From Sphingomonas carotinifaciens (lineage in GTDB: Bacteria > Pseudomonadota > Alphaproteobacteria > Sphingomonadales > Sphingomonadaceae): 64,000 nt of DNA. The stretch spans positions 2,355,501 to 2,419,500 of the forward strand of contig NZ_WSUT01000005.1 in NCBI RefSeq assembly GCF_009789535.1, read 5' to 3'. The notes under the pieces are model-generated. The model searched no databases. It had not been told where the DNA came from and worked only from the letters and a program-made list of their open reading frames with translations. The position numbers and the translations under genes are program-made. This document shows, in pieces, positions 41,985 to 63,119 of this stretch; position 1 is the first letter of the stretch; each line of letters opens with the position of its first letter.

Positions 41985-46630
<4,646 letters not shown>

Positions 46631-46741
46631 CTACAAGTTTGCTTAACCGACCGATAGGGCCAAGATGTTGAATTAGCCGGTCACTTAGCCCGAATACCCG
46701 CGTCAATCAGCGCGTGGCTGACGAAGCCTCCCCCACTTTCA

Positions 46742-49093
46742 TCAGCTCTGCACCGCCGGGTCGCGCGCCGGGCTGGACGCGGTCATCATACGCATCTCGT
46801 ACAGCACGGCATCGTCCTGCAACGCGGTGACCACCACCTCGGCCTGCGGCTTGGCGCCGTTGCCGGACACGGGATAATCGATCGCGGCGAAATGCCCTTC
46901 CCCGCCCTTGACCTGCTGGCCGGCACCAAGCGGCTGCCCATCCACACTGATGCCCATCTTCCGGTCGGCATCGCCCCGCGCGACCAGTACGCGCAGCACC
47001 GCCGCCCCGGGACGCCGCGCCAGCACCATCCGCATCGACTCGCCCGGGCGCAGACGCCGTGCGGAACGCCCGCTCCAGTTCACCACCTCGCTATGCTCCG
47101 ACCGGAACTGGTGGTCGCGTTCGGGCTGCATCTCGCCCAGATGGATGATGTCCGACGTGCGCCGGGCAAGCGTGCGCGCCTCCTCCTGCGCCTGCACATA
47201 TCCTGCCCTGGCACCCGCCCATCCGGCGGGAGTGAAGGTCGGGAAATACACCGCCGCGCGCCGGTCATATTGCGAGAAGAACGGCTTGAAGGTCAGCGCC
47301 TCGTCAAGCGCACCCACCGCCCGGAACTGTCCTGCACCACCCGCCGGCGCCAGGGCACCCGTCGCAGCCGATGCGGTGACCAGCGCCGGCCCCACGCCCT
47401 CGAACTGCGCATCCGCCGGCCCCATGTCCGCCGCCAGCACCAGCGGCCCGTAGGTAAACGCCACCATCGACGCATCCCCGGGCGTCGGGTGCGACGCCAC
47501 CGCCATCGGCAGCGTCACCTTCACCACGTCCCCGGCCCGCCAACGCCGCTCCAGCACCGCATAGCCATCCCGCAGCACTGGGCGGGCCGCCACGTCGTTC
47601 ACCGTCAGCACCGGCGCCTTCGCCCAACCCGGCAACCGTATGGCGAGGGCCTGCGCCGCGCGTGGCGCCCGCTTGACGGTCAGCGTGGCACGGCCCTCCA
47701 GCGGCATCGCCGTATCCAGCGTCACCGCCAGCCCCCGCTCCGGCCAGTCCAGTTCGGACGGGATGAACAGGTTCACGTACAGCGTCCTGGCGTCGCTCCA
47801 CCAGATCGAGTCCGCGTGCTTGGCATGGCTTTCCATCCCCGATCCGACGCAGCACCAGAAGCTGTCTTCGGGACTGGAGAATACCCGCCGCGCGCCCACG
47901 GCGAGCGGCATGAAATACACGAACTGACCGGTATCCGGCCGCTGATGCGCCATGATGTGGTTGAGCTGCACCTGCTCATAGAAATCGAACCAGCGCGCAT
48001 CGGGTTGCCAGCTATACAGATGCCGGGTCAGCTTCATCATGTTGTAGCTGTTGCACGCCTCGCATGTCGCCTCGGTGATGCGACCGGCCAGTTGATCGGG
48101 TTGGCCGAAATGCTCGCGCTCGGAATTGCCGCCGATGATGTAGCTGTGATGCTGCGTCACCCGCTCGTGGAAGAAGCGCGGGGCGACCATATGCGCCGGG
48201 TTGCCCGTCACCTCATGCAGCCGTGCCAGGCCGATCACCTTCGGTATCTGCGTGTTGGCATGCAGGCCCGCCAGCCTGTCCTGCCGCGCGGCGAGGGGAT
48301 CGAGTACCGCCTTGTGCCGGATCTTCTCGGCCATGCGCAGCCAGCGCGGATCGCCGGTCAGGGCATAGGTTTCCGCATAAGTCTCGTTCAGCCCGCCATG
48401 CTCGGCATGCAGCACCCGCTGCATCTGCGCGTCGTCGAGCGGCTCCAGCACGCCGGCCAGATAGCCGGCCAGCCCCAGCATGATCGGCATCGCCCGCGCA
48501 TTGCGCGCCAGCACATGTGCGTCGATCAGCCCGGCATGGACCTTGTGCCACGTATAGAGCGGCACCCATCCGCCGTTCAGGTCGAACCCCCCGGTGCGGA
48601 TGTCGCCGCGCCGTACCTCCTCGAACACGACCTTGCCGTCGACCGTCCTGCCGTCGCGCTCCACCGTGGTGCCGCCGCAATAGCCGTCGCCGTGCGCGGC
48701 CTGGATACGCGCCATTTCGGCCAGTGCATGATCCAGCCGCGCCGCCACCTCACGATCGCCCGTATTCCCCACTACCAGCGCGCATGCGGTCAACCAGTGG
48801 CCCAGCGAGTGGCCGGCAATGCCCATCGCCTCCCAGCCGCCATAGACCGGCTTGGGTGCCGGCAGGCCGGCCGATTGGTAGAAATTGTGCAGCAACCGCT
48901 CGGGATCGAGGGCCAGCAGATAGCGGCGGTTCGCCTCGAACGCGTCGGCAAAGGGCGACGGCTTCAACCGCACATAACGCGCCGGCACCGGTTCGACCCG
49001 GCGGCTGCGCATGACGGGCAACTCCGCCCACGCCGCCGGCGCCAACGCCACGACGCTTGCGCTGGCCAACAGGGAACGACGGGAAAGCAACAT
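46742..49093 (-). CDS. GH127/GH146-type beta-L-arabinofuranosidase (DUF1680), secreted
   Basis: 783 residues with a twin-arginine-like signal (LSRRSLLASASVVALAPAAWA). The (alpha/alpha)6 barrel shows all zinc and catalytic positions known for the family: Glu326 in SEREHFG, Glu345 and Cys347 in EACNSYNMMKL, and the Cys414-Cys415 pair in FWCCVGSG. A C-terminal domain of about 130 residues includes HLGEMQPERDH, shared with the partial gene at the left edge of the window. ATG 49093 is preferred to ATG 49126 because AGAGG lies at good spacing and the upstream ATG sits inside a hairpin. Confidence 0.9.
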   Translation of the reverse strand: MLLSRRSLLASASVVALAPAAWAELPVMRSRRVEPVPARYVRLKPSPFADAFEANRRYLLALDPERLLHNFYQSAGLPAPKPVYGGWEAMGIAGHSLGHWLTACALVVGNTGDREVAARLDHALAEMARIQAAHGDGYCGGTTVERDGRTVDGKVVFEEVRRGDIRTGGFDLNGGWVPLYTWHKVHAGLIDAHVLARNARAMPIMLGLAGYLAGVLEPLDDAQMQRVLHAEHGGLNETYAETYALTGDPRWLRMAEKIRHKAVLDPLAARQDRLAGLHANTQIPKVIGLARLHEVTGNPAHMVAPRFFHERVTQHHSYIIGGNSEREHFGQPDQLAGRITEATCEACNSYNMMKLTRHLYSWQPDARWFDFYEQVQLNHIMAHQRPDTGQFVYFMPLAVGARRVFSSPEDSFWCCVGSGMESHAKHADSIWWSDARTLYVNLFIPSELDWPERGLAVTLDTAMPLEGRATLTVKRAPRAAQALAIRLPGWAKAPVLTVNDVAARPVLRDGYAVLERRWRAGDVVKVTLPMAVASHPTPGDASMVAFTYGPLVLAADMGPADAQFEGVGPALVTASAATGALAPAGGAGQFRAVGALDEALTFKPFFSQYDRRAAVYFPTFTPAGWAGARAGYVQAQEEARTLARRTSDIIHLGEMQPERDHQFRSEHSEVVNWSGRSARRLRPGESMRMVLARRPGAAVLRVLVARGDADRKMGISVDGQPLGAGQQVKGGEGHFAAIDYPVSGNGAKPQAEVVVTALQDDAVLYEMRMMTASSPARDPAVQS

Positions 49094-49110
49094 CGCCAAA
49101 ACCTCTCCAT

Positions 49111-49159
49111 GGCCCGGTGCCCGCATCGTGCGTCCGACTTACATGGTCGGGCACCGGCC
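49111..49159. promoter_or_regulatory. Hairpin in the leader of the GH127 gene
   Basis: Arms GGCCCGGTGCCCG (49111-49123) and CGGGCACCGGCC (49148-49159) pair with one bulged base across a 24-base loop. It ends 17 bases before the GH127 start. There is no T-run, so it is more likely a leader structure than a simple terminator for the upstream TerD gene. Confidence 0.4.
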
Positions 49160-49235: not shown

Positions 49236-49814
49236 CTAACCGACGTTCACGCCATAGTTACGCGCCATCGGCGCGAGACCGCCTTTATATCCTTGACCTA
49301 CCGCGCGAAACTTCCACTCGCCATTGTGGCGATAAACTTCACCGAAAATCATCGCCGTCTCCGTCGATGCATCCTCCGACAGGTCGTAACGCGCGATCTC
49401 GCGCCCGGTGACATCATTGACGACCCGGATGAACGCGTTGGAAACCATGCCGAAGCTCTGTCGGCGCTGCTCGCCTTCATGGATCGTCACCGATACCGCG
49501 ATCTTCTGCACGTCGGACGGAACGGTCGCCAGGTCGACCTTCAACGCCTCATCGTCGCCATCGCCCTCGCCGGTCCGATTGTCACCGGTATGCTCGACCG
49601 AGCCGTCCGCGGAACGCAGATTATTGTAGAAAATGAAATCGGCATCGCCGCGCACCCGGTCGCCCGTCCCCAGAAGAAAGGCGCTGGCATCCAGATCGAA
49701 GTCGGTACCATCGGTGGTACGCGTGTCCCAGCCCAGTCCGATCAGAATGCGCGAAAGGCCGGGTTCCTCCTTCGACAAGCTGACATTGCCACCCTTGGAC
49801 AGGCTTACGGACAT
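49236..49814 (-). CDS. TerD family stress protein (single copy)
   Basis: 192 residues beginning [20 protein letters not shown], the standard TerD start. The calcium-binding acidic block [13 protein letters not shown] and the later [12 protein letters not shown] are present, and the end NYGVNVG is typical. TerD proteins bind Ca2+ and take part in tellurite, phage or general chemical-stress responses. The other ter genes (terB, terC, terZ) are not here, so this is a lone member between two sugar clusters. Its own promoter should lie in the 108 bases before it. Confidence 0.92.
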
Positions 49815-49922
49815 CGGTGTTTCTCCATCATCGGCAGGTCTTGGGAAGATCGCCCCCATCACCGAACGCGCGGCGCACGCATTCCGGTTCCCGAGCGCGG
49901 GTGATGCTTCCCATGCCGTCGT

Positions 49923-51596
49923 TTATGCGCGCAGCGCCTTTACCGCATGATCCGCGGCCCGCGCGGTCAGGGCCATGAAGGTTAGCGACGGGTTGACGCA
50001 GGCGATCGATGCCATCTGCGCGCCGTCCGTGACGTACAGGTTGCTGGCATCATGCGCCTGGCTCCATCCGTTCAGCACGGACTTGCGCGGGTCGCGTCCC
50101 ATGCGCGCGCCGCCCATTTCGTGGATCGCGTCACCCGGCACATGCTCGCTTTCCCAACTGTGCACGTTGGTCAGGCCCGCCTCCCGCAGCATCGCCTCGC
50201 CCTGCGTCCGGGCGTCCGCCATCATCTTCAACTCATTGTCGCGGAAGCGCACGTCGAAGCGCATCAGCGGCACGCCGAAGCGGTCCACCTTGTTCGCGTG
50301 CAGCGACACGCGATTGTCCGCATAGGGCAGGCATTCGCCGAATGCCCCCATGCCGAACTTCCACGGGCCATAACGGCGCATGCCATGTTTCATCGACGCG
50401 CCGAAGCCGACCGGCTCCGACACTTCACGCCGCGCGCTGCCCTGATACCCATAGCCGCGGCGGAACCCGACCCCTTCGTCGCCACCGATGTTGCGGAATC
50501 GCGGCACATAGACGCCACCCGGCCGGCGGCCATATTCGATGAACTCCTCCATCCCCGGAATGTCGCCGCCGACGCCGACGCGGAAGATGTGGTCCATCAC
50601 ATAGGCGCCCAGCGTGCCATGGCTGTCGAAATGGCTGCGTCCGGTGCGGGCATCGCGCGAGTTCATCAGGATCTGGGTCGATGCGATCGCCGATGCGCAC
50701 AGGAATACCAGGTCGGCCGACACGACCTCTGCCTGCCCGGTATTGGCATCGACATAGCGGACGCCGGTCACCCGCTTGCGCGCCTTGTCATATTCCAGAT
50801 TGGTCACCACGGCATCGGACTTCAACGTCAGCTTGCCCGTCGCGCGTGCGGCCGGCAGCGTCACCGCCTGTGTCGAGAAATAGGCGCCGAACGAGCAGCC
50901 ATTGCTGCACTGGTTGCGATACTGGCACTTGGTGCGGTTCTGATCGGGCTTGTCCTCCGTCATGTTGGACAGGCGCGTGTTGATCAGCTTGCGGCCCGGA
51001 AACTTCGACTCCAGCCGTCCCTTCAGCCACGTCTCGGCGACGTTCATCGGCATCGGCGGCTGGAATTCGCTGTCGGGAAGATAGGGCAGGTTCTCGCGCG
51101 ATCCCGACACGCCGATATATTTTTCGACATAGGAATACCAGGGCGCGACATCGTCATACCCGATCGGCCATTCGCCATCGATGCCGTCGCGCTTGTTCGC
51201 GTCGAAATCCTCCGGCGCCCAGCGGAAGCTCCACCGGCCCCAGATCAGCGACTTGCCGCCGACCGCCGCCGGGCGGATCCAGTAAAAGGGGCTGCCCTCG
51301 CCATACGCATAGGGGTTGGCCTTGTCGTCATTGTAGAAGGCCTGGTTGCTCGGCGCGACATAGCCGTGCTTGGCGATGAAATAGTTACTTTCGATCAGCG
51401 GCTTGGGCATGATGTTGCGGGCCGGCACCTCATAGGCCGGCTTGCCGTCATAGGTGTAGCCCTCGCCATGCTCCACCATCCGGCCACGGTCGAGCATCAG
51501 GACGCGAAGGCCCTTTTCGGTCAATTCCTTGGCGGCAAACCCGCCGCTCACGCCCGAACCGATGACGACTGCGTCGAACCTGTTGGTCGATGCCAT
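49923..51596 (-). CDS. GMC-family FAD dehydrogenase, large subunit of a glycoside 3-dehydrogenase-type complex
   Basis: 557 residues. FAD site GSGVSGGFAAKELTEKG at the N-terminus; C-terminal GMC block HEMGGARMGRDP and NPSLTFMALTARAAD with the catalytic His/Asn. Three cysteines at 224, 230 and 234 (CQYRNQCSNGC) match the spacing of the 3Fe-4S ligands in bacterial FAD glucose dehydrogenases. No signal peptide: the protein should be exported folded with its Tat-bearing small subunit, encoded two genes upstream. It probably oxidises sugars or glycosides at C3 and passes electrons to the cytochrome c of the same operon. Last gene of the operon. Confidence 0.9.
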   Translation of the reverse strand: MASTNRFDAVVIGSGVSGGFAAKELTEKGLRVLMLDRGRMVEHGEGYTYDGKPAYEVPARNIMPKPLIESNYFIAKHGYVAPSNQAFYNDDKANPYAYGEGSPFYWIRPAAVGGKSLIWGRWSFRWAPEDFDANKRDGIDGEWPIGYDDVAPWYSYVEKYIGVSGSRENLPYLPDSEFQPPMPMNVAETWLKGRLESKFPGRKLINTRLSNMTEDKPDQNRTKCQYRNQCSNGCSFGAYFSTQAVTLPAARATGKLTLKSDAVVTNLEYDKARKRVTGVRYVDANTGQAEVVSADLVFLCASAIASTQILMNSRDARTGRSHFDSHGTLGAYVMDHIFRVGVGGDIPGMEEFIEYGRRPGGVYVPRFRNIGGDEGVGFRRGYGYQGSARREVSEPVGFGASMKHGMRRYGPWKFGMGAFGECLPYADNRVSLHANKVDRFGVPLMRFDVRFRDNELKMMADARTQGEAMLREAGLTNVHSWESEHVPGDAIHEMGGARMGRDPRKSVLNGWSQAHDASNLYVTDGAQMASIACVNPSLTFMALTARAADHAVKALRA

Positions 51597-51621
51597 GATT
51601 GTCCTCTCCAGAAAACGAAGG

Positions 51622-52458
51622 TCAGACGCGCAGTGCGCGCAGCGTCTGGAAACTCTTGGTGATGTCGGGAATGTAGGGTGCGGGCGCCTCGTCGTTTTCG
51701 ACGTAGAAATGCCGCACCCCGGCGCTACCCTTCAGCCGGAACAACGCCGCGAAATCGGTCACGCCCGCGCCCACCGCGGTCATGCTGCGGTCTGGGCGCA
51801 TGTCCTTGACGTGATAGGCGTACAGGCGATCCGCCAGCCGCTCGATCCACGCCGGGACGTCTTCGCCCGCATGCGCCACCCAGTAGAGGTCCAGCTCCAC
51901 CTTCACCAGCGCCGGGTCGGTCTCGCGGAGCAACCGCTCGTACAGGCTGACCCCGCCCGGCTTCACGGTGAATTCGAAGTCGTGATTGTGATAGGCGAAA
52001 TTCAGCCCTGCCGCCCTCAAATCATTGGCGAACCGGTTGATGTTGGGCAGCGCTGCCTGCCAACCCGCCTCGGTGCGATGCTCGTCGGTCATATAGGGCA
52101 ATATCACCGTGCCCGCGCCCAGCGTCTTGGCCATCGCCACCGACTTGGCGAAATTGCCGAGCAGCGCGTCATAACCGATATGCACCGACGGCGCGGTCAG
52201 CTTCAGGCGGTCCATGGTCCGGCGCAGCATGGCATGATCCATGCTGTCGTAACCGCCACCGCCGAACTCGACCTCGCGGTAACCGATGCCCGCCACCGTC
52301 TCCAGCGTCTTGACCGGGTCCTTCTGGAACAGCTCGCGCACCGTGTAGAGTTGCAGCCCGATCGGCCCCAGCTTTGCGGCAAAGGCCGGTGCACCGACGA
52401 GGCCGAGAGCGGCCAGCGACCCTGCGCCGGCCAGCAGATGACGACGATTGATGGTCAT
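51622..52458 (-). CDS. Tat-exported sugar phosphate isomerase/epimerase-like TIM-barrel protein
   Basis: 278 residues. Twin-arginine signal NRRHLLAGAGSLAALGLVGAPAFA, then an AP-endonuclease-2-type barrel with QLYTVRELF, AYHNHDFEF, VELDLYWVAHAGED and HVKDMRPD, which carry the metal ligands Glu/Asp/His. Periplasmic location rules out a sugar phosphate substrate, so the automatic family name is misleading. Relatives in such operons are candidate 3-keto-glycoside lyases or epimerases. Overlaps the small-subunit gene by four bases. Confidence 0.87.
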   Translation of the reverse strand: MTINRRHLLAGAGSLAALGLVGAPAFAAKLGPIGLQLYTVRELFQKDPVKTLETVAGIGYREVEFGGGGYDSMDHAMLRRTMDRLKLTAPSVHIGYDALLGNFAKSVAMAKTLGAGTVILPYMTDEHRTEAGWQAALPNINRFANDLRAAGLNFAYHNHDFEFTVKPGGVSLYERLLRETDPALVKVELDLYWVAHAGEDVPAWIERLADRLYAYHVKDMRPDRSMTAVGAGVTDFAALFRLKGSAGVRHFYVENDEAPAPYIPDITKSFQTLRALRV

Positions 52459-53018
52459 GAGCTATAGACCTTGTTGACCTGGGAATAGGGAAAGGCGCCG
52501 TTATATTCGCCCGGCACCGGCAGGTATTCGCGCTCCTGCGTCATGCCGATCTCCGACGTATAGTATCCGGTGATGACAAGCTGCCGGAACGCCTCGAAGA
52601 AGGTCTTGCCGCCCGGCATCTGGTCGTTCATCGCCAGCGTCAGCAGCGCATCCTGTTGCGCCGGCGTCGCCTTGGCGGCGGACGTGCGATAGTCGCGCTG
52701 GCTGCGCGCCTCGATCGCATCCAGCCCGGCGACGATCGGCGCCCGGTCGCCCGGCTCGGCCCAGTCCGCCAGCATCTTCTCGATGAATGCCGGCACGCCC
52801 GCGGCGATCGCGCCCGGCGTGTCCGTCGTCGGCAGCACCCGCTCGCTCAGCGCGGTCATCAGCGCGCGTTGCGGCGCGGTAAAGACCGCCACGCTCGGCG
52901 GCCCCTGGTTGATCGGCGGCACCGGTTGCGCCAGCCCGGCGGCGCGCGCGATCGGTGCGAACAGGGCGCTGCCGAACATCGCGGCGACGCCCGCCAATGC
53001 GGTTCTACGGTCGATCAC
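52455..53018 (-). CDS. Gluconate 2-dehydrogenase subunit 3 family protein (Tat-exported small subunit)
   Basis: 187 residues with a twin-arginine signal (DRRTALAGVAAMFGSALFAPIARA). The mature part matches the gluconate dehydrogenase subunit 3 family: LMTALSERVLPTTDTPGAIAAGVP and a C-terminal GYYTSEIGMTQEREYLPVPGEY. In FAD glucose and glucoside dehydrogenases this subunit stabilises the GMC subunit and carries it through the Tat pathway. The partner is the GMC protein encoded two genes further on. Confidence 0.9.
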   Translation of the reverse strand: MIDRRTALAGVAAMFGSALFAPIARAAGLAQPVPPINQGPPSVAVFTAPQRALMTALSERVLPTTDTPGAIAAGVPAFIEKMLADWAEPGDRAPIVAGLDAIEARSQRDYRTSAAKATPAQQDALLTLAMNDQMPGGKTFFEAFRQLVITGYYTSEIGMTQEREYLPVPGEYNGAFPYSQVNKVYSS

Positions 53019-53842
53019 TGGCCCTTACCTCCCAGATCCTGTGCGATCGCCGCCTCGGTCAGCGGACGAACCCAGATGTTGCGATAGGCGACCGGCGAGT
53101 CGTGATCCTGCAACTGTATCGGCGCGGCATCGGGATGCGCCTTGTACGCAGACACCTGCCGCCATGCGGTCGTGCCCAGCATCGCCTGATGGTTCTGCAC
53201 CAAGACGCCGTTCAGGAACGCGGTGACATAGGCGGGCCGCACCAGCGAACCATCCGCGGCGAAACGCGGCCGCTCAAACACGATATCGTAGCTTTGCCAT
53301 TCGCCGGGCTTGCGCGACGCGTTCACCAGCGGCGGCTTCCAGCCATAGACGGCACCCACCGTGCCATCGGCATAGGTCGGATTGTTGTAGCCATCTAGGA
53401 TCTGCACCTCGTAGCGCTGCATGAACCAGATGCCGCTATTGCCCCGGTCCTGCGACGTCTTGGTCGGCGGATTGGGCGAGCGGAACTCCAGATGCATCTG
53501 CACGTCGCCGAAGCTCTGCTTGGACACCAGATTGTTCTCGCCGCCGCTTCTGGCGCGCGACGGCACGACCAGCGCGCCGTTCTCCACCGGCCACATCGCC
53601 CGCTCGCCGCGCCAGGCATCGGTCGACCGCCCGTCGAACAGCACCACCGCGTCCGACGGCGCCCCGCCCGGAGCCGCCGCGGGCGTCACCACCGCGGGCG
53701 CCGGGCGATCGGCATCATGCACCCGCCACTGCCCGCCCGGCAGCACCGGCGTATCCTTGAACCCCGGCTTCTCCTGCGCCAGCGCCGGACTTGCGCCCAG
53801 CACCAGCATCAGGGCGGGGGCAACCTTCCGCATTCCCGTCAT
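53015..53842 (-). CDS. DUF1080 family secreted protein (3-keto-disaccharide hydrolase-like)
   Basis: 275 residues with signal peptide (LMLVLGASPALAQ). The concanavalin-like DUF1080 domain is clear: VVLFDGRSTDAWRG, RGNSGIWFMQRYEVQILDGY, GTVGAVYGWKPP and LQDHDSPVAYRNIWVRPL. Proteins of this family are reported to cleave 3-keto-glycosides, which fits a dehydrogenase that would make them. The start ATG 53842 overlaps the upstream stop by four bases, and TGA 53015-53017 overlaps the next start. Confidence 0.88.
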   Translation of the reverse strand: MTGMRKVAPALMLVLGASPALAQEKPGFKDTPVLPGGQWRVHDADRPAPAVVTPAAAPGGAPSDAVVLFDGRSTDAWRGERAMWPVENGALVVPSRARSGGENNLVSKQSFGDVQMHLEFRSPNPPTKTSQDRGNSGIWFMQRYEVQILDGYNNPTYADGTVGAVYGWKPPLVNASRKPGEWQSYDIVFERPRFAADGSLVRPAYVTAFLNGVLVQNHQAMLGTTAWRQVSAYKAHPDAAPIQLQDHDSPVAYRNIWVRPLTEAAIAQDLGGKGQ

Positions 53843-54765
53843 GCTCGCTCTCCCCCGTCGATCGCGCGATAGGCGGCGATCAGCCGCTCCTCGCCCGCGC
53901 GACCCTTTGTCGCATTGCCATGTTCCATGCCGATCACCCCGGCATAGCGTTTGTCCTTCAGCCAGCGGACGATATTGGCATAGTTGATCTCGCCCGTACC
54001 CGGCTCGTTGCGGCCCGGATTGTCGCCGAACTGGATATAGCCGATCTCCGACCAGCACGCCGCCAGCGTCGGGATCAGGTTCCCGGACTGGATCTGCTCA
54101 TGGTAAAGATCGGCCAGGATCTTCACGCCCGGACTGTTCGCCCCGCGCGCCACCGCATAGCCTTGCGCGATGGTCTGCAGATAGACGCCCGGATGATTGG
54201 TCCGCGTGTTCAGCGGCTCCATGACCATCGCGAGCCCATGCGGCGCGACGATGTCGCCGGCTTTCCGCATCACGTCGATCACCCGCGCGGTCTGGATGTC
54301 GAGCGGCAGCTTGTTGTCCAGAAACCCCGTCACCACCGTCATCCGGTTGGCGTTCAGCCGCTTGGCGACCTCGATCGAGCTGCGGATGTCGGCTAGGAAG
54401 CCCTCGCGTTCCGCCTCGTCATTGCCGCCCAGCAGCGGCCGGGACTGCGCCCATTTGGGCATGCTGGCGACGAACACGCCCATCGTCATGCCGCGCGACG
54501 CCAGCGCCTTGGCCATCGCCTCCTGCTGGGCGACGGGGCGGCCGCGTGCCTCGTTATCCTCCCATGCGGTGAAGCCCTGGTCCGCGGCATAGGCTATCTG
54601 TTCGATCAGCCCGCCGCGACTGGCAAAGCTCCCCTCATGCGGCGCATAGCCCAGTGCGAAGCGCGCCGCGTTGGACGGGCGACGCTGCGCCCCCGCCCCA
54701 GCCGTCGCGGCGACAAGCGACGAAGCGGCCCCCGCCGCCAGAACAGTCCGACGCGACAGCGTCAT
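53839..54765 (-). CDS. Tat-exported hydroxypyruvate isomerase-like TIM-barrel protein
   Basis: 308 residues with a twin-arginine signal (LSRRTVLAAGAASSLVAATAGAGA). The barrel keeps metal-site acids and histidines: VMEPLNTRTNHPG, ILADLYHEQIQSGN, YIQFGDNPGRNEPGTGEINY and GMEHGN. It resembles hydroxypyruvate isomerase (Hyi/YgbM) but is periplasmic. Likely acts on a 3-keto-sugar intermediate. It is 13 bases after the cytochrome c gene and coupled to DUF1080. Confidence 0.87.
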   Translation of the reverse strand: MTLSRRTVLAAGAASSLVAATAGAGAQRRPSNAARFALGYAPHEGSFASRGGLIEQIAYAADQGFTAWEDNEARGRPVAQQEAMAKALASRGMTMGVFVASMPKWAQSRPLLGGNDEAEREGFLADIRSSIEVAKRLNANRMTVVTGFLDNKLPLDIQTARVIDVMRKAGDIVAPHGLAMVMEPLNTRTNHPGVYLQTIAQGYAVARGANSPGVKILADLYHEQIQSGNLIPTLAACWSEIGYIQFGDNPGRNEPGTGEINYANIVRWLKDKRYAGVIGMEHGNATKGRAGEERLIAAYRAIDGGERA

Positions 54766-54778
54766 GCCCCCACCTGCA

Positions 54779-55159
54779 TCATTTGGCCCCTTCCGCCTTC
54801 AGATAAGCGATGATCGCCGCGCGCTTGGCCGGATCGGGCGTCGCGATCGGCATCTTGGTGCCGGGCACCTTCTTCATCGGCCCGGCCAGATAGGCATCCA
54901 GCGTCGCATCGTCCCAGCGCAGCTTCGACGCCTTCATCGCCGGCGAATAGTTGAATCCCGCGACCGACGCCGCCGGCCGCCCGACCACGCCGTGCAGGTT
55001 CGGGCCGATCCCGTTGCGACCGCCCTTGTTGACCGTATGGCACGCCTTGCACGCGGCAAATGCAGCGGGCGCGGCACTCTGCGCCTGCGTCGCCTCGGAT
55101 CCGAACACCAACGCCGCCGACGCGGCTCCCATCACGGCCAGGCCGATGAGCAACTTCAT
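54779..55159 (-). CDS. Class I cytochrome c
   Basis: 126 residues with a signal peptide (VMGAASAALVFGSEATQAQ), the heme motif CKACH near residue 37-41 and the axial Met in TKMPIATPDP. It is a soluble monoheme cytochrome of c550/c2 type. Within this operon it is the natural electron acceptor for the GMC dehydrogenase, feeding electrons to the respiratory chain. Start ATG 55159 overlaps the upstream stop by four bases. Confidence 0.93.
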   Translation of the reverse strand: MKLLIGLAVMGAASAALVFGSEATQAQSAAPAAFAACKACHTVNKGGRNGIGPNLHGVVGRPAASVAGFNYSPAMKASKLRWDDATLDAYLAGPMKKVPGTKMPIATPDPAKRAAIIAYLKAEGAK

Positions 55160-56304
55160 GCATTCTCTCCCGGACCGATATCGGTCCATTTCCGGTCGCC
55201 CCCCGCATTGGCGAGGACCGCCTCGATAAAGTCCATCGTGCGCAATCCATCCGCCACGCCCGGATGGGCGGTCTTGCCCTCGCCGCGGATCGACCCGGCA
55301 AAGGCACGGTAAAGATTGGCAAAAGCCTCGATATAGCCTTCCGGATGACCCGAAGGTGTACGGAATTGCGCCGCAACCGCCGGCTGCATTCCCGGCCCGC
55401 CGGCGCGCAACGTCTCGGCCGGCCGGTCGAGCCAGCGCAGCACCAGCGTGTTGGGCTCCATCTGCGCCCATTCCAGCCCGCCATGCTCGCCGTGGATGCG
55501 CAGGCGCAGGCCATTTTCCTCGCCCGCCGCCACCTGGCTCGCCTTCAGCACGCCGCGCGCGCCGCCCGGAAAGCGCAGCAAGGCGCTGACATCGTCGTCC
55601 AGCCGTCGTCCCGCGACATGGATCGCGACATCCGCCGACACCGACGCCGCCGCCAGCCCCGACACATGCTCCGCCAGATGAAAGGCATGCGTCCCGATAT
55701 CGCCCAGGCATCCGCCCATTCCGGCGCGCGCCGGGTCGGTGCGCCATTCGGCCTGCTTGTTGCCGCCGGTATCGATCGGCTGGCTCAGCCATCCTTGCAG
55801 ATATTCCACCTGCACCAGCCGGATCGCGCCCAGATCGCCACGCGCCACCCGGACCCGCGCCTCCTCGATCAGCGGATACCCGCTATAGGTGAAGGCCAAC
55901 GCAAAGTACCGTCCGCTCTTGCGCGCCGCCGCGGCGATCGCCCGCGCCTCGTCGCCGCTGATCGCCATCGGCTTTTCGCAAAAGACGTGAAAGCCCGCCT
56001 CCAGCGCCGCGATCGCCATCGGCGCATGCAGATGGTTTGGCGTCACGATCGCCAGTGCATCGATCCGCTCCTCCTCGGGCAGCGCCGCCTCGCGTTCGAG
56101 CAGCAGGTCGAGCGAGGGATAGACGCGCGCTTCGTCCAGCCCCAGCGCCGCGCCGCTCCGCGCGTTGCGCGCTTCGTCGCTGCTGAACGCACCCGCCACC
56201 AACTGCCAGTCGCCGTCCAGTGCTGCCGCCATCCGGTGCACCGCCCCGATGAACGCGCCCTCGCCGCCGCCGGCCATGCCTAGCCGAAGTCGGCGCCCGC
56301 TCAT
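55156..56304 (-). CDS. Gfo/Idh/MocA family oxidoreductase
   Basis: 382 residues, cytoplasmic. Rossmann loop [12 protein letters not shown] at the N-terminus, the family motif CEKPMAIS near residue 110, and [16 protein letters not shown] near 205 with the conserved Asp and His of the active site. Members oxidise or reduce sugars with NAD(P)(H). In this operon it could reduce an imported 3-keto-sugar back to the hexose. Four-base overlaps on both sides. Confidence 0.92.
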
Positions 56305-57371
56305 GCGGCGCCGCCATCGGTCGACAGGCCCAGGATCGATCGGATCGCGGCCCGGTCCACGCCGCTCTTGGCGAAATCGTCGAACGGATGATCGGTCACG
56401 CGGATGATGTGGTCGCGGATGAACGGCGCCCCCTCACGCGCGCCGTCCTCGGCACGCTTCAACGCGCATTCCCATTCCAGCACCGCCCAGCCCGCATAGC
56501 CATATTGCGCCATCCTGGTGAAAATGCCGGAAAAGTCTACCTGTCCGTCGCCCAGCGAGCGGAACCGCCCGGCCCGGTCCACCCAGTCCTGATACCCGCC
56601 ATAGACGCCCGATCGCCCGGTCGGGTTGAACTCGGCATCCTTGACGTGGAAACAGGAGATCCGGTCGTGATACCGGTCGATGAAGTCGAGATAATCGAGC
56701 TGCTGCAGCACGAAATGCGACGGATCGAACAACAGCCGCGCCCGCGGATGCTCGTTCACCGCCGCCAGGAAGCGTTCCCACGATGCGCCGTCATGCACAT
56801 CCTCGCCGGCATGCACCTCGAACGCGCAATCGACCCCCGCGTCCTCGAACACGTCGAGGATCGGCACCCAGCGCCGCGCCAGCTCGGCGAACGCCTCCTC
56901 CACCAGCCCTGCGGGCCGCTGCGGCCAGGGATAGACATAGGGCCAGGCCAGCGCACCGGGGAAGGTCGCATGCGCGCTCAATCCCAGATTGGCGCTCGCC
57001 CGCGCCGCCATCTTCACCTGCTCCACCGCCCAGGCCTGCCGCTCGGCGGGCTTGCCATGTACTTCCGGCGGCGCGAACCCGTCGAACAGCGTGTCATAGG
57101 CGGGGTGGACGGCGACCAGCTGGCCTTGCAGATGCGTCGACAACTCCGTCACCGCGATACCGTGGCGGTCCAGCTTGGCCCGCAGGTCGTCGCAATAATC
57201 CCGGCTCTCGGCCGCGGTCTTCAGGTCGATCAGTTGCGCATTGCACGGGATCTGCACCCCGACATAGCCCAGGCCCGCGGCCCACTGCGCCATGTTTTCC
57301 AGCGTGTCGAATGGTGCGTCCTGCCCCATGAACTGCGCAAGGAAGATTCCCGGCCCCTTCATATCCTTCAT
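56301..57371 (-). CDS. Cytoplasmic sugar phosphate isomerase/epimerase-like TIM-barrel protein
   Basis: 356 residues without signal peptide. AP-endonuclease-2-type barrel with metal-site segments FEVHAGEDVHDG, LLFDPSHFVLQQ, CFHVKDAEF and VLEWECALKR. It is larger than the two exported barrels of the operon and belongs to the group often paired with Gfo/Idh/MocA enzymes. Probable role: isomerisation, hydration or elimination step on the keto-sugar in the cytoplasm. ATG 57371 overlaps the transporter stop by four bases. Confidence 0.88.
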   Translation of the reverse strand: MKDMKGPGIFLAQFMGQDAPFDTLENMAQWAAGLGYVGVQIPCNAQLIDLKTAAESRDYCDDLRAKLDRHGIAVTELSTHLQGQLVAVHPAYDTLFDGFAPPEVHGKPAERQAWAVEQVKMAARASANLGLSAHATFPGALAWPYVYPWPQRPAGLVEEAFAELARRWVPILDVFEDAGVDCAFEVHAGEDVHDGASWERFLAAVNEHPRARLLFDPSHFVLQQLDYLDFIDRYHDRISCFHVKDAEFNPTGRSGVYGGYQDWVDRAGRFRSLGDGQVDFSGIFTRMAQYGYAGWAVLEWECALKRAEDGAREGAPFIRDHIIRVTDHPFDDFAKSGVDRAAIRSILGLSTDGGAA

Positions 57372-58630
57372 CGTGCGGCCTCCATCTTGCCAAGTGCCTT
57401 TTGGTCGTCGCGGAAGGTCAGCTGGAACAGGATCGCGATCGCCGCCGCCGCGATGGCCGGATACCACCACATCTGGTGCCAGTCGGCGATGCTCGGGGTC
57501 GCCGGCAGTTGCGCATACAGCAACCCACCGATCTGCGACCCCAGCAGCATGCCCAGCCCATAGGTGAACAGCGTCAGCATGCCCTGCGCCTGCGCGTTCA
57601 CGCCCTTGGGGGTCGCGATCGTGCCCGTGTAGATCGCACCCGCGACAAAGAAGAAATCATAACATACGCCGTGCAGCGCGACGCCGACATAGATCGCCCA
57701 GAGCGAGTCCCCGCCGTCCCCGATCGCGAACAACGCGTAGCGCAGCGCCCAGGCGGCCATGCCGACCAGCAGCAGCGGCTTCACGCCGAACCGGCGATAC
57801 AGCCACGGCATGGAAAACATGAACAGCAGTTCGGACATCTGCCCGATCGCCAGCGTGCCCCCGACATTCTCGATCCCCGCCGCCCCGACATAGGCCGAGG
57901 CATAGGCGTAATACATCGCCAGCGGGATCGAGATCAGCGTGGCGCAGGTCACGAAGATCAGGAACGAGCGCTGCTTCATCAGGCTGAACGCCTCGACGCA
58001 CAGCACCTGCCGGACGACGCCCTCGTCGCGCGGCGTGTCGGACGCGACGTTGGGCAGGGTGAAGCTGTAAAGGCCCAGCGCCACCGACACGACGGCGGCG
58101 ACCCGGAAGATTTCCGGGCTCGCCGACAGCCCGGCCCAGCCGATGATCAGCCCGGCCGTGATCCAGCCCAGCGTGCCGAACGCGCGCACGAACGGGAAAT
58201 TGTCCGTCCGCTCGCCAAAGCTCTTCAGCGCGATCGTGTTCGCCAGCCCGACGGTCGGCATATAGAGGATCATGTAGCCCAGCAGCAGCCAGACAAAGGT
58301 CGTGCCGCTCTCCGGCGTGACCAATCCGGGCAGCACGAACAGGATGGCGCCGCCGACCAGATGCAGGATCACCATCAGCATGCGCGGCGCGACATAGCGG
58401 GCCGCGGCCATGCCCAGCAGGAACGATCCCACGATCGATGCGATCGGCCCTACCGAAAACGCATTGGCGATCAGGTGGCCGACGCCCACCGTCTGCATCG
58501 CCAGGCCCAGCGTCACGTTCCACGCGCCCCAGACGAAGAACTGCATGAACATCAGCGCGCTCAGGCGCCCCGTCAACCATCCGTCCGCGGGGTTCGCGGT
58601 GACGTCTATCGACCCTTCGGCAACGGCCAT
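57368..58630 (-). CDS. MFS transporter of the nucleoside:H+ symporter family (Nuc_H_symport)
   Basis: 420 residues, about 12 membrane segments. LMFMQFFVWGAWNVTLGLAMQ at the N-terminus and FGTLGWITAGLIIGW near residue 150 match the NupG/XapB-type family, which in sugar operons of this sort often carries other small ligands. Here it probably imports the sugar product of the periplasmic steps. ATG 58630 has GGAGAGG at good spacing; an in-frame ATG at 58672 is less likely. First gene of the nine-gene operon, 65 bases after a palindromic operator. Confidence 0.9.
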   Translation of the reverse strand: MAVAEGSIDVTANPADGWLTGRLSALMFMQFFVWGAWNVTLGLAMQTVGVGHLIANAFSVGPIASIVGSFLLGMAAARYVAPRMLMVILHLVGGAILFVLPGLVTPESGTTFVWLLLGYMILYMPTVGLANTIALKSFGERTDNFPFVRAFGTLGWITAGLIIGWAGLSASPEIFRVAAVVSVALGLYSFTLPNVASDTPRDEGVVRQVLCVEAFSLMKQRSFLIFVTCATLISIPLAMYYAYASAYVGAAGIENVGGTLAIGQMSELLFMFSMPWLYRRFGVKPLLLVGMAAWALRYALFAIGDGGDSLWAIYVGVALHGVCYDFFFVAGAIYTGTIATPKGVNAQAQGMLTLFTYGLGMLLGSQIGGLLYAQLPATPSIADWHQMWWYPAIAAAAIAILFQLTFRDDQKALGKMEAAR

Positions 58631-58695: not shown

Positions 58696-58711
58696 ATGTA
58701 AAGGTTTACAT
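58696..58711. promoter_or_regulatory. LacI-family operator (ATGTAAA GG TTTACAT)
   Basis: Perfect seven-base arms around two central bases. It lies in the 234-base gap between the divergent MFS and LacI genes, 65 bases before the MFS start and 153 bases before the LacI start. It is the best palindrome in the gap and the most probable binding site of the LacI protein at 58865-59860. Confidence 0.75.
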
Positions 58712-58864: not shown

Positions 58865-59860
58865 ATGCCGACGATCATCGAAGTCGCAGCCATGGCGCGC
58901 GTGTCCACCGCCACCGTCTCGCGCGTGCTCAGCCAGCCGGATCGCGTGGCCGAGCCGACCCGGGACCGCGTGCTCGCCGTCGTGCGCGAGCTTGGCTATG
59001 CGCCCAACGTCGCGGCCCGCACGCTGCGCACTCTGCGCGCGGCCAAGATCCTGCTGACCGTGCCCGATATCTCGAACCCCTTCTTCGCCAGCGTCATTCG
59101 CGGCGCGGAGGAGGCGGCCCGCGATGCCGGTTATGCCGTGGTCCTCGGCGACACGCGGCACGATCCGGAGGTGGAGGATCAATATGCCGCGATGCTGTCG
59201 CGGCGCGAGGTGGACGGCATGATCTTTCTCGGCCACCGCCTGCCCGAAAGCCTGCGCGTCGTCGTCTCGCGCGACGGCGCACCGATCGTCAACGGTTGCG
59301 AATACAGCCCCGAACTCGGCGTCTCGGGCGTCTATATCGACAATGAAGCCGCCGCCACCGACATGATGGAGCATCTGATCGCGCTCGGGCACCATGACAT
59401 CGGCCTTGTCACCGGCCCGCCGATCAGTCCGCTCACCCATCACCGCCAGTCCGCGGCCATGCTGACCGCCGCGCGTCACGGCATTGCGGATCGCGTGCAC
59501 GTCCATGTCGGCGACTATTCGGCGCAATCCGGCTTCGAACAAACGCAGGCGCTGTTGGCGCGCGGCGTCAGCGCGATCTTCTGCTTCAGCGACGAGATGG
59601 CGTTCGGCGCGATCAGCGCGGTTGCCGCCGCCGGCATGTCCTGCCCCGATGATGTGTCCGTCGCGGGGTTCGACGATCTGCCGCTCGCCCGCTTCTACCA
59701 GCCCGCGCTCACCACCATCGCCCAGCCAAAGGCACAGATCGGCCGCAAGGCGGTGGAATTGCTCATGGAAACGCTGCGCCGGGACGAAACGGGGATACAG
59801 CAGGTCACCCTGCCGCACGAACTCCTGGTCCGCGGCAGCACCGCCGCTTACCGCGGATAG
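58865..59860 (+). CDS. LacI family transcriptional regulator
   Basis: 331 residues. Helix-turn-helix at residues 4-25 (IIEVAAMARVSTATVSRVLS), hinge, then a periplasmic-binding-protein-like effector domain (LLTVPDISNPFFASVIRGAE, FSDEMAFGAISAV, SVAGFDDLPLARFYQPALTTI). Divergent from the 3-keto-glycoside operon and next to a clear palindrome, so it most likely represses that operon until a sugar binds. ATG 58865 matches family starts; ATG 58853 in frame is possible. The 3' end overlaps the convergent halogenase gene by 13 bases. Confidence 0.93.
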   Translation: MPTIIEVAAMARVSTATVSRVLSQPDRVAEPTRDRVLAVVRELGYAPNVAARTLRTLRAAKILLTVPDISNPFFASVIRGAEEAARDAGYAVVLGDTRHDPEVEDQYAAMLSRREVDGMIFLGHRLPESLRVVVSRDGAPIVNGCEYSPELGVSGVYIDNEAAATDMMEHLIALGHHDIGLVTGPPISPLTHHRQSAAMLTAARHGIADRVHVHVGDYSAQSGFEQTQALLARGVSAIFCFSDEMAFGAISAVAAAGMSCPDDVSVAGFDDLPLARFYQPALTTIAQPKAQIGRKAVELLMETLRRDETGIQQVTLPHELLVRGSTAAYRG

Positions 59861-61323
59861 GGGCAGTAACGCTCCAGAAACGCCTGGTGCACCGGCAGCG
59901 TCGCCACCTGCCGCGCCACCTGCGCGCGCATGTCGTCCAGCACCTGCCGCAACCGCGCCTCGCCCATGATCGCCCCCATCCGGTGATGGTGCCGCGGCAC
60001 CACCCCCTGTCCGATCATCACCTGCACCCAGGAATCGACGCGGAACAGCTCCTCGCCCTCCTGATACGCCATCGCATTGTCGCGAAACAGCGCGATCCGC
60101 TCGCGCAGCGTGTCCGGTATCGCCATCGTCCTGGCACGCCGCCAGAAGGCGGTGTCGTCCCGTTCGGTCAGCACGTAATGCAGCACGATGAAGTCGCGGA
60201 TGCGCTCCAGGTCGGCCGCCGCCTGATCGTTGAAGCGCTTGGCCAGCGCGGTGCAGTCGCCATCGAACGGGAACATCTGCAGCAGGCGGGTGACCGCGAT
60301 CATCACCAGATGGATGGCGGTGGATTCCAGCGGCTCGACGAACCCGCCGGCCAGTCCGATGGAGATGCAATTGCCCCGCCAAGCCTGCGTCCGCCGCCCC
60401 GCCTTGAAGCGGATGGTACGCGGCTCGATCAGGACCTCGCCCTCTACCGCGGACAATAGCCGCGCCCGCGCCTCGTCATCCGACAGATGCGCCCGGTCAT
60501 ACACCAGGCCGTTCCCTACCCGGTGCTGCAACGGGATCTGCCACCGCCACCCCTCCCCATGCGCGATCGCGCGCGTATAGGGTACCGCCGGCCCCACCGC
60601 CCGCGTCTGCGTCACCACCGCCGAGTCCGTGGGCAGCCACTCGCTCCAGTCGACGAACGCCGCGCCCATCGCCTGCCCGATCAGCAGCGCGCGGAATCCG
60701 GTGCAATCGATAAACAGATCGCCCTCGATCCGTTCCCCCGATCGCAGCACGAGGGCCTGGATGTCGCCGTCCCGCTCGACCCGCTCGATCAGTCCCTCGA
60801 CCCGTCGGACGCCCGCCCCCTCGGCCACCCCCCGCAAATGCCTGGCATACAGCCCCGCATCCAGATGATAGGCATAGCTCAGCTCGGGGCCTTGCCCGCC
60901 TGCCCCGAACCGCCCGGCCTCCGCTGTCTGCAACTCCAGGCAATACGCCCCCAGATCCCCCCCGAACCCCTGCTCCCGCGCCTGCAGCCAGAACTGGTGG
61001 AACGCCCCCATCCACGTCCCCCGCCCCGTCTCCCCGAACGCATGAAAATACCGATCCCCGACCCGGCCCCAATCCTCGAACGCGATCCCCAGCTTGAAGC
61101 TCGCCCCGGTCTCCGCCATGAACCGCTGCTCGTCGATGCCGATCAGCCGGTGGAACGCCCGCGCTGTCGGGATGGTGGATTCGCCGACGCCGATCGTCCC
61201 GATCTCGTCGGATTCGATCAAGGTGATATCCAGCACCGATCCCAACTGCTGCCCCAGTGCCGCGGCCGTCAGCCAGCCGGAGGTCCCGCCGCCCGCGATC
61301 ACCACCCGCCGCCGTTCGCTCAT
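59848..61323 (-). CDS. Flavin-dependent tryptophan halogenase family protein
   Basis: 491 residues. FAD site GGGTSGWLTAA, the GVGESTIP loop, the catalytic lysine equivalent Lys77 in SFKLGIAF, the halogenase motif GWRWQIPL and FVEPLESTAIHLV are all present, so halogenation chemistry is possible. However, in sphingomonads and caulobacters such genes recur beside TonB receptors, SapC and cupin_8 genes rather than in natural-product clusters, and their substrate is unknown. Coupled by four bases to the cupin gene. Confidence 0.92.
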   Translation of the reverse strand: MSERRRVVIAGGGTSGWLTAAALGQQLGSVLDITLIESDEIGTIGVGESTIPTARAFHRLIGIDEQRFMAETGASFKLGIAFEDWGRVGDRYFHAFGETGRGTWMGAFHQFWLQAREQGFGGDLGAYCLELQTAEAGRFGAGGQGPELSYAYHLDAGLYARHLRGVAEGAGVRRVEGLIERVERDGDIQALVLRSGERIEGDLFIDCTGFRALLIGQAMGAAFVDWSEWLPTDSAVVTQTRAVGPAVPYTRAIAHGEGWRWQIPLQHRVGNGLVYDRAHLSDDEARARLLSAVEGEVLIEPRTIRFKAGRRTQAWRGNCISIGLAGGFVEPLESTAIHLVMIAVTRLLQMFPFDGDCTALAKRFNDQAAADLERIRDFIVLHYVLTERDDTAFWRRARTMAIPDTLRERIALFRDNAMAYQEGEELFRVDSWVQVMIGQGVVPRHHHRMGAIMGEARLRQVLDDMRAQVARQVATLPVHQAFLERYCPYPR

Positions 61324-62339
61324 CGGTTCAGCCTCTGCATCACCTGTGCCCGCAACCTGCGCGCCGCCCCTTCATCCATCTCTCCAAGCGCCCCTCGCGC
61401 ATGCCCCGGCAAATGCTCCGCCCCCTGCCCTGCCGGGCCGAACAGATAATAGTCGAACAGCGCGCGCCAGCTCTGCTTTTCGCTGTCGGGGCGGCTGCGA
61501 AGGCTGAGCAGTCCGTGGAGCAACGTGGTCATCGGCGTATCGACAAAGGCGGGTGTATCGTTCCACCAATGGTTGATCATCACGTTGAAGCCGTCCAGCG
61601 CCTCCACCTGATGCCACCACAGTGCCGGATAGACGAGCACATCGCCCGGTTCGAGTTCGGCCACCACCGCCCGCTCCAGCGCCGCACGATATCGCGGATA
61701 GCGATCCAGATCGGGGGCCCGCGGATCGACCATGCTCACCACCTGTCCGCCGGGGGTGGGGTCCAGCGGGCCGGGGTAGAGGTTGGCGATCTGATCGGGC
61801 GGGAAAAGCAGGAACCGGCGGCGCCCGACAAGCGGACACGCGATGTTGTTCGACATGTCCCAATGGGTCGCGGCCACCGTATGGTTGCCGATCCAGATGC
61901 TCGCCAACGGCCTGGTTCCGCCCGGCAGGACGCCGTCCGGCACAACCAGGTTCTCGGCCCGCAGGCCGGGGAAGTAGATGTCCAGATCGGTCGAACCCAG
62001 ATACACCGCATCCTCGCCATCGCGGATGCGGGCCAGATAATCCGCCAGCGGCGCACGCCCGGCGGCAAAGTTCATCGCCGTCAGCGTGTCGTTGTAGAAG
62101 AAGCGCCCTTCGATCGCCGGCTCGCCGACGAAACCTACCACCGACCGGCCCGCATCGAAGCGCGCAAGATACGCCATCGCCGCATCCGCACCGTCCCGAC
62201 CTATGGCGACCAGCGGCAGATCGGCGGCGGCCCCCTTCAGCATCACCGGCGCGCCGTCGTTAATCAATGCGGAAAAATCCACGGCATCATGTCGCAGGCC
62301 GTCGATCACGCGAACGGAGGGAAGCGCCGCCAGGTCCAT
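61320..62339 (-). CDS. Cupin_8/JmjC-like domain protein
   Basis: 339 residues. A double-stranded beta-helix with the Fe(II) facial triad: His and Asp in THWDMSNN and the distal His in WWHQVEAL. FLLFPPDQIANLYPG follows the first pair as in factor-inhibiting-HIF-type hydroxylases. It may be a 2-oxoglutarate-dependent oxygenase acting on a protein or small molecule. Its one-base overlap with the SapC gene and four-base overlap with the halogenase indicate one functional unit. Confidence 0.88.
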   Translation of the reverse strand: MDLAALPSVRVIDGLRHDAVDFSALINDGAPVMLKGAAADLPLVAIGRDGADAAMAYLARFDAGRSVVGFVGEPAIEGRFFYNDTLTAMNFAAGRAPLADYLARIRDGEDAVYLGSTDLDIYFPGLRAENLVVPDGVLPGGTRPLASIWIGNHTVAATHWDMSNNIACPLVGRRRFLLFPPDQIANLYPGPLDPTPGGQVVSMVDPRAPDLDRYPRYRAALERAVVAELEPGDVLVYPALWWHQVEALDGFNVMINHWWNDTPAFVDTPMTTLLHGLLSLRSRPDSEKQSWRALFDYYLFGPAGQGAEHLPGHARGALGEMDEGAARRLRAQVMQRLNR

Positions 62340-63064
62340 CAGGCGCCAGCGAGCCGCCGGTTCTTGCGATCGATCAGATGCGGCACGTTGCCGAGCGACG
62401 ACAGTGCCCAGATCGCAGGTTGCAGATACCCCTGCGCATGCAGCCGCTCCAGCGCATCGCCCGTCAGCCGAGCGATCGGCTCGGCACCGATCGCATGAAA
62501 ATCGTCCAGCACGTACCGCTTGCTGTCATCGAGCACGATCTCGATCGATACCGCCTCGATCACGCCCTCGGCGTCCAGTGCTGCGAACAACGCATCATTG
62601 GCCTGCGATCCCGCATGGATACGCCTGAGAACGTCCGCGACCGCTTCCAGATAGGGGCTATTGCCCCCTTGCGGCAGGAAAACCGGGCTGCCCTCCCCAC
62701 CTCGGCCGACCCGCACGTGATCGAGATCGACATGGATCATCGGCTCGCCGGTGCCGCCCTCCTCGTCGCGTGGTATGCCGATGGAGAAAGGCCCGCGCTG
62801 GTGCAATGCCGGAATATAGCGCGCCTGCCACACGCCATCATCCAGAAACAGGTTTTCGTCCCGGTCCAGGCCCAGCAGCGCAACCGAATGAAGCCGGCCA
62901 TCTTCGGACCGCCGGAACAGGATCGGATAATCGCGCTGTGCCTCCTCCCATTCGGTCGGGAAGATCAGCGTCTGGTTTACCGCATCGCCGTAAGCAGCGC
63001 CTGGGCGGGTGATCACCGTCAGATCGTGATGATCGACATTGTTGAGAAGCACGATGTTCGTCAC
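62339..63064 (-). CDS. SapC family protein
   Basis: 241 residues from GTG 63064 (AAGG seven bases upstream); a TTG two codons earlier is too close to that Shine-Dalgarno. SapC-family features are YPILFRRSEDGRLHSVALLGL and DGVWQARYIPALHQRGPFSIG. The name comes from Campylobacter S-layer work, but the family is common in sugar-receptor clusters of aquatic alphaproteobacteria and its function is unknown. It follows the TonB receptor after a strong hairpin. Confidence 0.87.
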   Translation of the reverse strand: MTNIVLLNNVDHHDLTVITRPGAAYGDAVNQTLIFPTEWEEAQRDYPILFRRSEDGRLHSVALLGLDRDENLFLDDGVWQARYIPALHQRGPFSIGIPRDEEGGTGEPMIHVDLDHVRVGRGGEGSPVFLPQGGNSPYLEAVADVLRRIHAGSQANDALFAALDAEGVIEAVSIEIVLDDSKRYVLDDFHAIGAEPIARLTGDALERLHAQGYLQPAIWALSSLGNVPHLIDRKNRRLAGA

Positions 63065-63086
63065 GAACAAACCTTATAAGCCATTG

Positions 63087-63119
63087 GGCGCTCGCCCGCC
63101 TATCATGCGGGCGAGCGCC
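63087..63119. terminator. Perfect hairpin between TonB receptor and SapC
   Basis: GGCGCTCGCCCGC (63087-63099), seven-base loop, and exact reverse complement (63107-63119). It lies 18 bases past the receptor stop and before the SapC gene, with no T-run. Same placement as the hairpin at 27773-27797. Confidence 0.65.

Follow-up and report, generated by a model that had tools for sequence, protein, structure and literature searches.

What does a row of nine minus-strand genes in Sphingomonas carotinifaciens do to sugars, and on which side of the inner membrane does it do so? The genes occupy 49923-58630 (outer limits) of a 64,000-nucleotide stretch of contig NZ_WSUT01000005.1, hereafter the window, and comprise a GMC dehydrogenase with its subunit 3 partner, a cytochrome c, a DUF1080 protein, three TIM barrels, a Gfo/Idh/MocA oxidoreductase and an MFS carrier. 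A sequence-only reading of the stretch had proposed that they form an operon for a periplasmic 3-keto-glycoside pathway, put together from chemistry that is known in pieces. Here, we conclude that the operon is real, that this reading is for the most part right and that the general function is well supported: very probably, sugar-containing molecules are cleaved outside the cell membrane through oxidation of the sugar, and not by hydrolysis. The majority of the steps have counterparts among enzymes characterized in other systems. As an overall explanation, we consider it probable that this is an inducible operon for oxidative glycoside cleavage, which is split across the inner membrane.

Results

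The coordinates proposed for the operon, the count of its four-base overlaps and the family names of all nine genes proved to be correct, the overlaps when followed junction by junction and the names in Pfam. Namely, in the order of transcription the genes encode the MFS carrier, the cytoplasmic TIM barrel, the Gfo/Idh/MocA protein (hereafter Gfo), the cytochrome c, an exported TIM barrel that we call TIM2, DUF1080, subunit 3, an exported barrel of the O-glycoside beta-eliminase (OGE) type and, finally, GMC (Table 1). Six overlaps of four bases join the carrier to the cytoplasmic barrel, this barrel to Gfo, Gfo to cytochrome c, TIM2 to DUF1080, DUF1080 to subunit 3 and subunit 3 to the OGE-type barrel, and the remaining two pairs of neighbours are separated by 13 and 25 bases. 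Note that such an overlap is not diagnostic in this window, as an adjacent halogenase/cupin pair also shares one (61320-61323). In Pfam, the carrier is an MFS nucleoside:H+ symporter, all three TIM barrels are xylose isomerase-like, DUF1080 has the present name 3-keto-disaccharide hydrolase and subunit 3 is that of gluconate dehydrogenase, while Gfo/Idh/MocA, cytochrome c and GMC come out under these same names.

Table 1. Genes of the operon and its control region, with positions in the window
Feature	Position	Strand	Basis
GMC flavoprotein dehydrogenase, proposed glycoside 3-dehydrogenase	49923..51596	-	PF05199 + PF00732
O-glycoside beta-eliminase, OGE type, exported (twin-arginine) TIM barrel	51622..52458	-	8bvk E 1e-26
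Gluconate 2-dehydrogenase subunit 3-type partner, twin-arginine signal	52455..53018	-	PF13618 124.2 bits; RR signal
DUF1080 3-keto-glycoside hydrolase/lyase, N-terminal signal (by eye)	53015..53842	-	PF06439 142.8 bits; 4qhz E 1e-56
TIM2, exported (twin-arginine) TIM barrel, hydroxypyruvate/2-oxo-tetronate isomerase type	53839..54765	-	profile scores
Monohaem cytochrome c, N-terminal signal (by eye), proposed GMC electron acceptor	54779..55159	-	PF00034
Gfo/Idh/MocA oxidoreductase, no export signal, proposed 3-keto-glucose reductase	55156..56304	-	PF01408 + PF22725
2-hydroxy-3-keto-glucal hydratase, no export signal	56301..57371	-	8ro4
MFS carrier, nucleoside:H+ symporter type, first operon gene, proposed importer of cleavage product	57368..58630	-	PF03825 269.8 bits
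Palindromic operator ATGTAAAGGTTTACAT between operon and LacI gene	58696..58711	.	alignment of intergenic regions
Divergent LacI-family regulator	58865..59860	+	PF00356 + PF13377

The proposed 3-keto-glycoside route is supported by the hydratase and the eliminase, both of which are identified through solved relatives (8ro4 and 8bvk), and a reductase-family gene is present as well. The hydratase aligns with the solved 8ro4 over residues 1-349 without a single gap and at 575 bits. In the OGE-type barrel, H157, H159, D190, H216 and E254 take the places of H132, H134, D163, H189 and E233 of the Agrobacterium enzyme AtOGE (alignment to 8bvk), with all five residues identical; in AtOGE, H132, D163 and H189 are metal ligands, E233 is a weak ligand and H134 is catalytic (PMC10628242). 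The alignment to 8bvk starts at residue 6, which is the start of the barrel, and AtOGE is without an export signal; the twin-arginine pattern is present in all 31 OGE rows from the fetched relatives. The DUF1080 protein, at 142.8 bits, passes the PF06439 gathering score of 26.8. A second DUF1080 protein, of 348 amino acids (97 bits), is encoded approximately 4 kb past the window end (locus L003, 8147-9193, plus strand).

The twin-arginine signals given here come from reading by eye and from a simple RR pattern, with no signal-peptide predictor behind them; a test for a hydrophobic stretch was dropped as non-discriminating, being positive in 39 of 40 Gfo rows too, and the RR pattern alone was used. 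Among the rows from fetched relatives, this pattern occurs in none of the 38 for the hydratase and in two of the 40 for Gfo. Since the hydratase and Gfo have no visible export signal, hydration and reduction are probably cytoplasmic. In other words, the pathway looks periplasmic as far as oxidation and cleavage are concerned, and probably not in its last steps. The two barrels that had been taken as exported by the twin-arginine route are both exported, and yet they are not equivalent, one being of the eliminase type and the other isomerase-like. The best solved relative of Gfo is 3v5n (348 bits), which is named merely Oxidoreductase. Each of the 20 class-level stretches picked around the hydratase has a Gfo gene adjoining the hydratase gene, and 18 of them are without GMC.

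Of the dehydrogenase complex, GMC has retained a His motif (HEMGG, 492) and an Asn motif (NPSLT, 535), whose His and Asn we take to be the catalytic residues, subunit 3 is proposed to carry the GMC subunit out, and the cytochrome c has a single CxxCH, at residue 37. Another contig of the same genome holds a second, distant GMC (45%) with a subunit 3 of its own (L081, 8708-10983) and no further operon-gene matches in a stretch of 19.5 kb.

In three relatives checked, another MFS carrier, which matches PF07690 only, takes the place of the carrier found here. Pantoea, Providencia and a Sphingobium plasmid have the carrier (49-80%) and the hydratase (61-79%) with no GMC in the compared stretches; on the enterobacterial plasmids (L253, 2032-6572; L252, 6950-10302), the two are found with two Gfo genes in Providencia and with LacI in Pantoea. 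Relatives of the carrier also occur in 51 Escherichia plasmid records.

The operon genes are conserved together much more than by chance. With the hydratase as query, 47 of 100 genomes, its own included, gave a match at E 0.001, and 40 stretches were fetched around such matches, 25 with a GMC of at least 70% identity, 12 with a more distant GMC and three with none. All of the 25 close operons, picked around the hydratase as they were, hold subunit 3, both exported barrels, cytochrome c, Gfo and the hydratase together. TIM2, OGE and subunit 3 reach at least 55% identity in every one of them, while cytochrome c is found in 25 (at least 55% in 24), Gfo in 25 (23), DUF1080 in 17 (15) and the carrier in 15 (14). 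In the 12 stretches with a distant GMC, TIM2 of at least 55% identity is found in none (there is one match of 30%), and OGE relatives below 55% are found in five. A class sample of 385 genomes, again with its own included, gave seven matches for TIM2 (E <=1e-30), five for GMC (E 1e-90) and 33 for the hydratase (E 1e-60). Beyond this hydratase-centered selection there are exceptions; in L075, TIM2, DUF1080, subunit 3, OGE and GMC form one block, with no hydratase or Gfo alongside.

The same or nearly the same gene set is present in other Sphingomonadaceae, Xanthomonas sacchari, Hymenobacter, Alteromonas and Indibacter. In particular, a plasmid of Sphingomonas parapaucimobilis YK209 bears the set, with an MFS carrier of another kind, and a plasmid of Novosphingobium sp. 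RL4 has eight types, with no match to the operon's carrier. In Xanthomonas sacchari R1, a record that is labelled as a plasmid contains every one of the nine protein types as well as a LacI gene, the exported barrel there belonging to the Indibacter subfamily. In two Hymenobacter loci, in Alteromonas sp. KUL106 and in Indibacter, eight of the nine types occur, the barrel being of the second subfamily and cytochrome c giving no match. When named genomes were scanned, the best 80 of 523 loci included ten with the close GMC type, and TIM2 is present in eight of them. Among these 80, relatives of TIM2 with 327-349 bits lie near GMC in the flavobacteria Cellulophaga, Dokdonia, Zobellia, Eudoraea and Maribacter, and no Caulobacter record appears, nor does one appear among the organisms named in searches of plasmids.

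Discussion

How could these parts work together? Outside, GMC, exported with its twin-arginine partner subunit 3, would oxidize C3 of the glycosyl unit and pass the electrons on to cytochrome c. The 3-keto-glycoside would then be beta-eliminated, beta-glycosides by the OGE-type barrel and others probably by DUF1080, which, judging by the relatives of these enzymes, would give the aglycone and 2-hydroxy-3-keto-glucal; TIM2 may interconvert 2-keto- and 3-keto-glycosides in the periplasm. The sugar product would be imported by the MFS carrier and turned inside into 3-keto-glucose by the hydratase, a step that 8ro4 strongly supports, and Gfo would presumably reduce 3-keto-glucose to glucose. The whole operon would be controlled by the LacI repressor at an operator that has a single exact copy. 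If the cleavage is truly periplasmic, bacteria with this operon import a reactive unsaturated keto sugar, perhaps via a nucleoside-type carrier.

How much of this is new? E. coli ycjQRS, whose dehydrogenases are of the Gfo type, also acts on 3-keto-glycosides and includes an epimerase with a TIM barrel of this superfamily, but the annotation of its stretch lists neither GMC nor DUF1080 nor an eliminase; YcjS matches a Gfo protein. In Caulobacter, LacABC are a flavoprotein, a protein of the subunit 3 type and a cytochrome. As far as selected passages of the three papers concerned go, the system is known as a kind, with the chemistry complete in PMC7676230 and largely so in PMC10628242, and with the cluster type and the genetics in PMC9007349. 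The view that the chemistry is known in pieces is, then, overtaken: for levoglucosan, the pathway LgdA/B1/B2/C already comprises all four steps of C3 oxidation, elimination, hydration and reduction to glucose (PMC7676230), the same chemistry as we propose for the operon. What differs is that its 3-dehydrogenase is NAD-dependent, that an ABC transporter belongs to the cluster and that the passages describing it mention no exported flavoprotein. In Agrobacterium, GlycDH-OGE-HYD-Gfo is a four-step route for plant O-glucosides, with the hydration called preliminary (PMC10628242), and has in common with the operon the five OGE residues, the hydratase that aligns ungapped over its full length and the Gfo oxidoreductase, whereas the operon exports its eliminase and adds DUF1080 and TIM2. 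The Caulobacter lactose cluster holds LacABC and DUF1080, a transporter, two epimerases and a reductase, with similar clusters in Indibacter and others (PMC9007349). By this description alone, the GMC complex, DUF1080, transporter, epimerases and reductase all have their likenesses in the operon, the two epimerases of the description standing against three TIM barrels here. Indibacter alkaliphilus LW1 (L202), which is named in the same paper, has GMC, subunit 3, an OGE-type barrel, an exported isomerase-like barrel, the hydratase, Gfo, an MFS carrier and a weak DUF1080 match (24 bits), and departs from the operon in having no cytochrome c match. The operon is consequently less novel than had been claimed, and its contribution lies in an exported eliminase and in the roles assigned to the parts. 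In particular, a flavoprotein dehydrogenase, an eliminase of a solved type, a solved hydratase and DUF1080 are tied into one genetically coupled set, which offers a concrete reading for a cluster type that the passages in PMC9007349 leave partly open, the fate of the keto sugar included.

That said, a number of observations weigh against the mechanism outlined above. No close characterized relative of GMC fixes C3 as the oxidized carbon, and the GMC proteins of Rhizobium plasmids are only about 32% identical to that of the operon. GMC and subunit 3 occur alone in four loci, namely L080 (GMC 71%) and L073, L132 and L133 (61-62%), where the stretch holds no OGE or TIM2 orthologue and, in L080, no other operon part besides subunit 3, meaning that the pair can stand by itself; on the Alteromonas I4 plasmid, too, the twin-arginine partner is the sole companion of GMC. 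DUF1080 is missing from the fetched stretch in eight of the 25 close operons, one of which has it approximately 1.6 kb beyond GMC, while a DUF1080 gene exists somewhere in each of ten genomes tested, those eight included. In Bacteroides, deletion of the DUF1080 gene BT2157 caused no growth defect on raffinose-family sugars (PMC11501099). The carrier is of the operon's type in just 15 of the 25 close operons, and in Providencia it is accompanied by two Gfo genes, for which reason it may import the intact glycoside. Finally, TIM2 is missing from the operon in L135 and L137, two of the ten close loci among the best 80 of 523, and the literature account of the drift to 2-keto forms concerns C-glycosides. 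In L135, an Indibacter-type exported barrel (43%) directly follows GMC, suggesting that exported isomerase-like barrels can substitute for one another; in L137, a fragment of 5.2 kb, neither TIM2 nor such a barrel was found. A rule that TIM2 is always present, which holds in 25 of 25 close hydratase-centered operons, is broken by L135, L137 and L080 and was abandoned.

What, then, is TIM2? We propose, from its profile matches, that it is an exported keto-glycoside isomerase, which most likely carries out a metal-assisted proton transfer on a keto-glycoside. It scores 128.5 bits against the hydroxypyruvate isomerase profile TIGR03234 and 112.9 bits against the 2-oxo-tetronate isomerase profile NF043033, below the respective curated cut-offs of 353 and 325, and it resembles these isomerases more than the 3-keto-glycoside 4-epimerase YcjR. 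Our first choice, a tentative one, is that it interconverts 2-keto- and 3-keto-glycosides and in this way returns a spontaneous side product to the pathway; the 2-keto-glycoside form could not be cleaved in vitro by the lyase tested in the literature. More doubtful is the wider proposal that TIM2 is a new periplasmic isomerase, which shifts the carbonyl between C2 and C3 on intact glycosides and undoes the drift from 3-keto to 2-keto outside the cell, and that exported barrels of two or three related subfamilies do likewise in many GMC-type 3-keto-glycoside clusters of Proteobacteria and Bacteroidota. In the open-access literature searched (titles, abstract openings and selected passages), no exported keto-glycoside isomerase is described.

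It is rather unlikely that TIM2 is instead a periplasmic 4-epimerase of 3-keto-galactosides and 3-keto-glucosides, by which galactosides such as lactose would join the glucose route without the Leloir pathway, although such an enzyme would settle the fate of 3-ketogalactose, which is left open in the passages of PMC9007349. Namely, TIM2 scores 128.5 with the hydroxypyruvate isomerase profile versus 45 with that of psicose 3-epimerase, whereas for YcjR the order is reversed (81 versus 117), and by Z, YcjR matches TIM2 on a par with xylose isomerases and tagatose epimerases. What is more, the seventh-strand His of YcjR (in GHVHIAD), presumably a metal ligand, is not kept, TIM2 having Q245 in GYIQFGD and 3ngf likewise a Gln. 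Distinctly less likely is a further lyase or hydratase, broadening the leaving groups or anomers past those of OGE and DUF1080: TIM2 does belong to the same Pfam family as OGE and the hydratase, and the levoglucosan hydratase LgdB2 also eliminates weakly (PMC7676230), but TIM2 gives no significant BLAST match to either protein and groups with isomerases.

Would our conclusions be different if the complex oxidized C1 or C2, in the manner of gluconate or fructose dehydrogenases, and the barrels acted on other keto sugars? The best solved relative of GMC is the large subunit of fructose dehydrogenase, with glucose dehydrogenases also among the closest, and the family of subunit 3 is named after gluconate 2-dehydrogenase. 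Given such relatives, our case for oxidation at C3 draws on the operon partners of GMC. These partners, namely the linked hydratase, the OGE residues and DUF1080, all indicate a 3-keto-glycoside, and we regard oxidation at C1 or C2 as very unlikely.

As for the natural substrate, we agree with the earlier view that none of the families predicts it, and no substrate prediction was reached in our analysis either. All 14 intergenic regions that were aligned retain ATGTAAAG..TTACAT of the operator. Over the whole genome, the operator occurs once exactly, not at all with one mismatch and ten further times with two mismatches, the reversed control giving one. The LacI regulon is probably the operon alone, or the operon together with weak sites elsewhere, and the single exact copy, in pointing to a regulon of the operon alone, suggests that the adjacent glycosidases do not reveal the substrate. 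Genes for GH43, GH2 (beta-galactosidase-like) and GH127 (beta-L-arabinofuranosidase-like) do lie just downstream on the same minus strand (41985-49126), and one relative (L020) has a GH2 of 72% identity some 7 kb away on the other side of its own operon, but it is most improbable that the operon is part of an arabinogalactan-type locus and acts on the oligosaccharide that these enzymes release, and the block was dropped as a guide to the substrate, since GH127, GH2 and TerD are absent from all 12 downstream stretches of close relatives (one of which has a distant GH43, of 31%) and no further operator copy with up to two mismatches is present near the GH genes or elsewhere in the window.

A TerD-domain gene (PF02342, 292 bits; 49236-49862, minus strand) lies between the operon and GH127, with no obvious link to either. 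Beyond the LacI gene, genes for a tryptophan halogenase-like protein, a cupin-8 protein, SapC and a TonB receptor follow in a row on the minus strand (59848-63998), the receptor continuing past the window end, and at 37886-41338, also on the minus strand, a protein of 1150 amino acids fuses an MFS domain, an acyltransferase and an AMP-binding enzyme.

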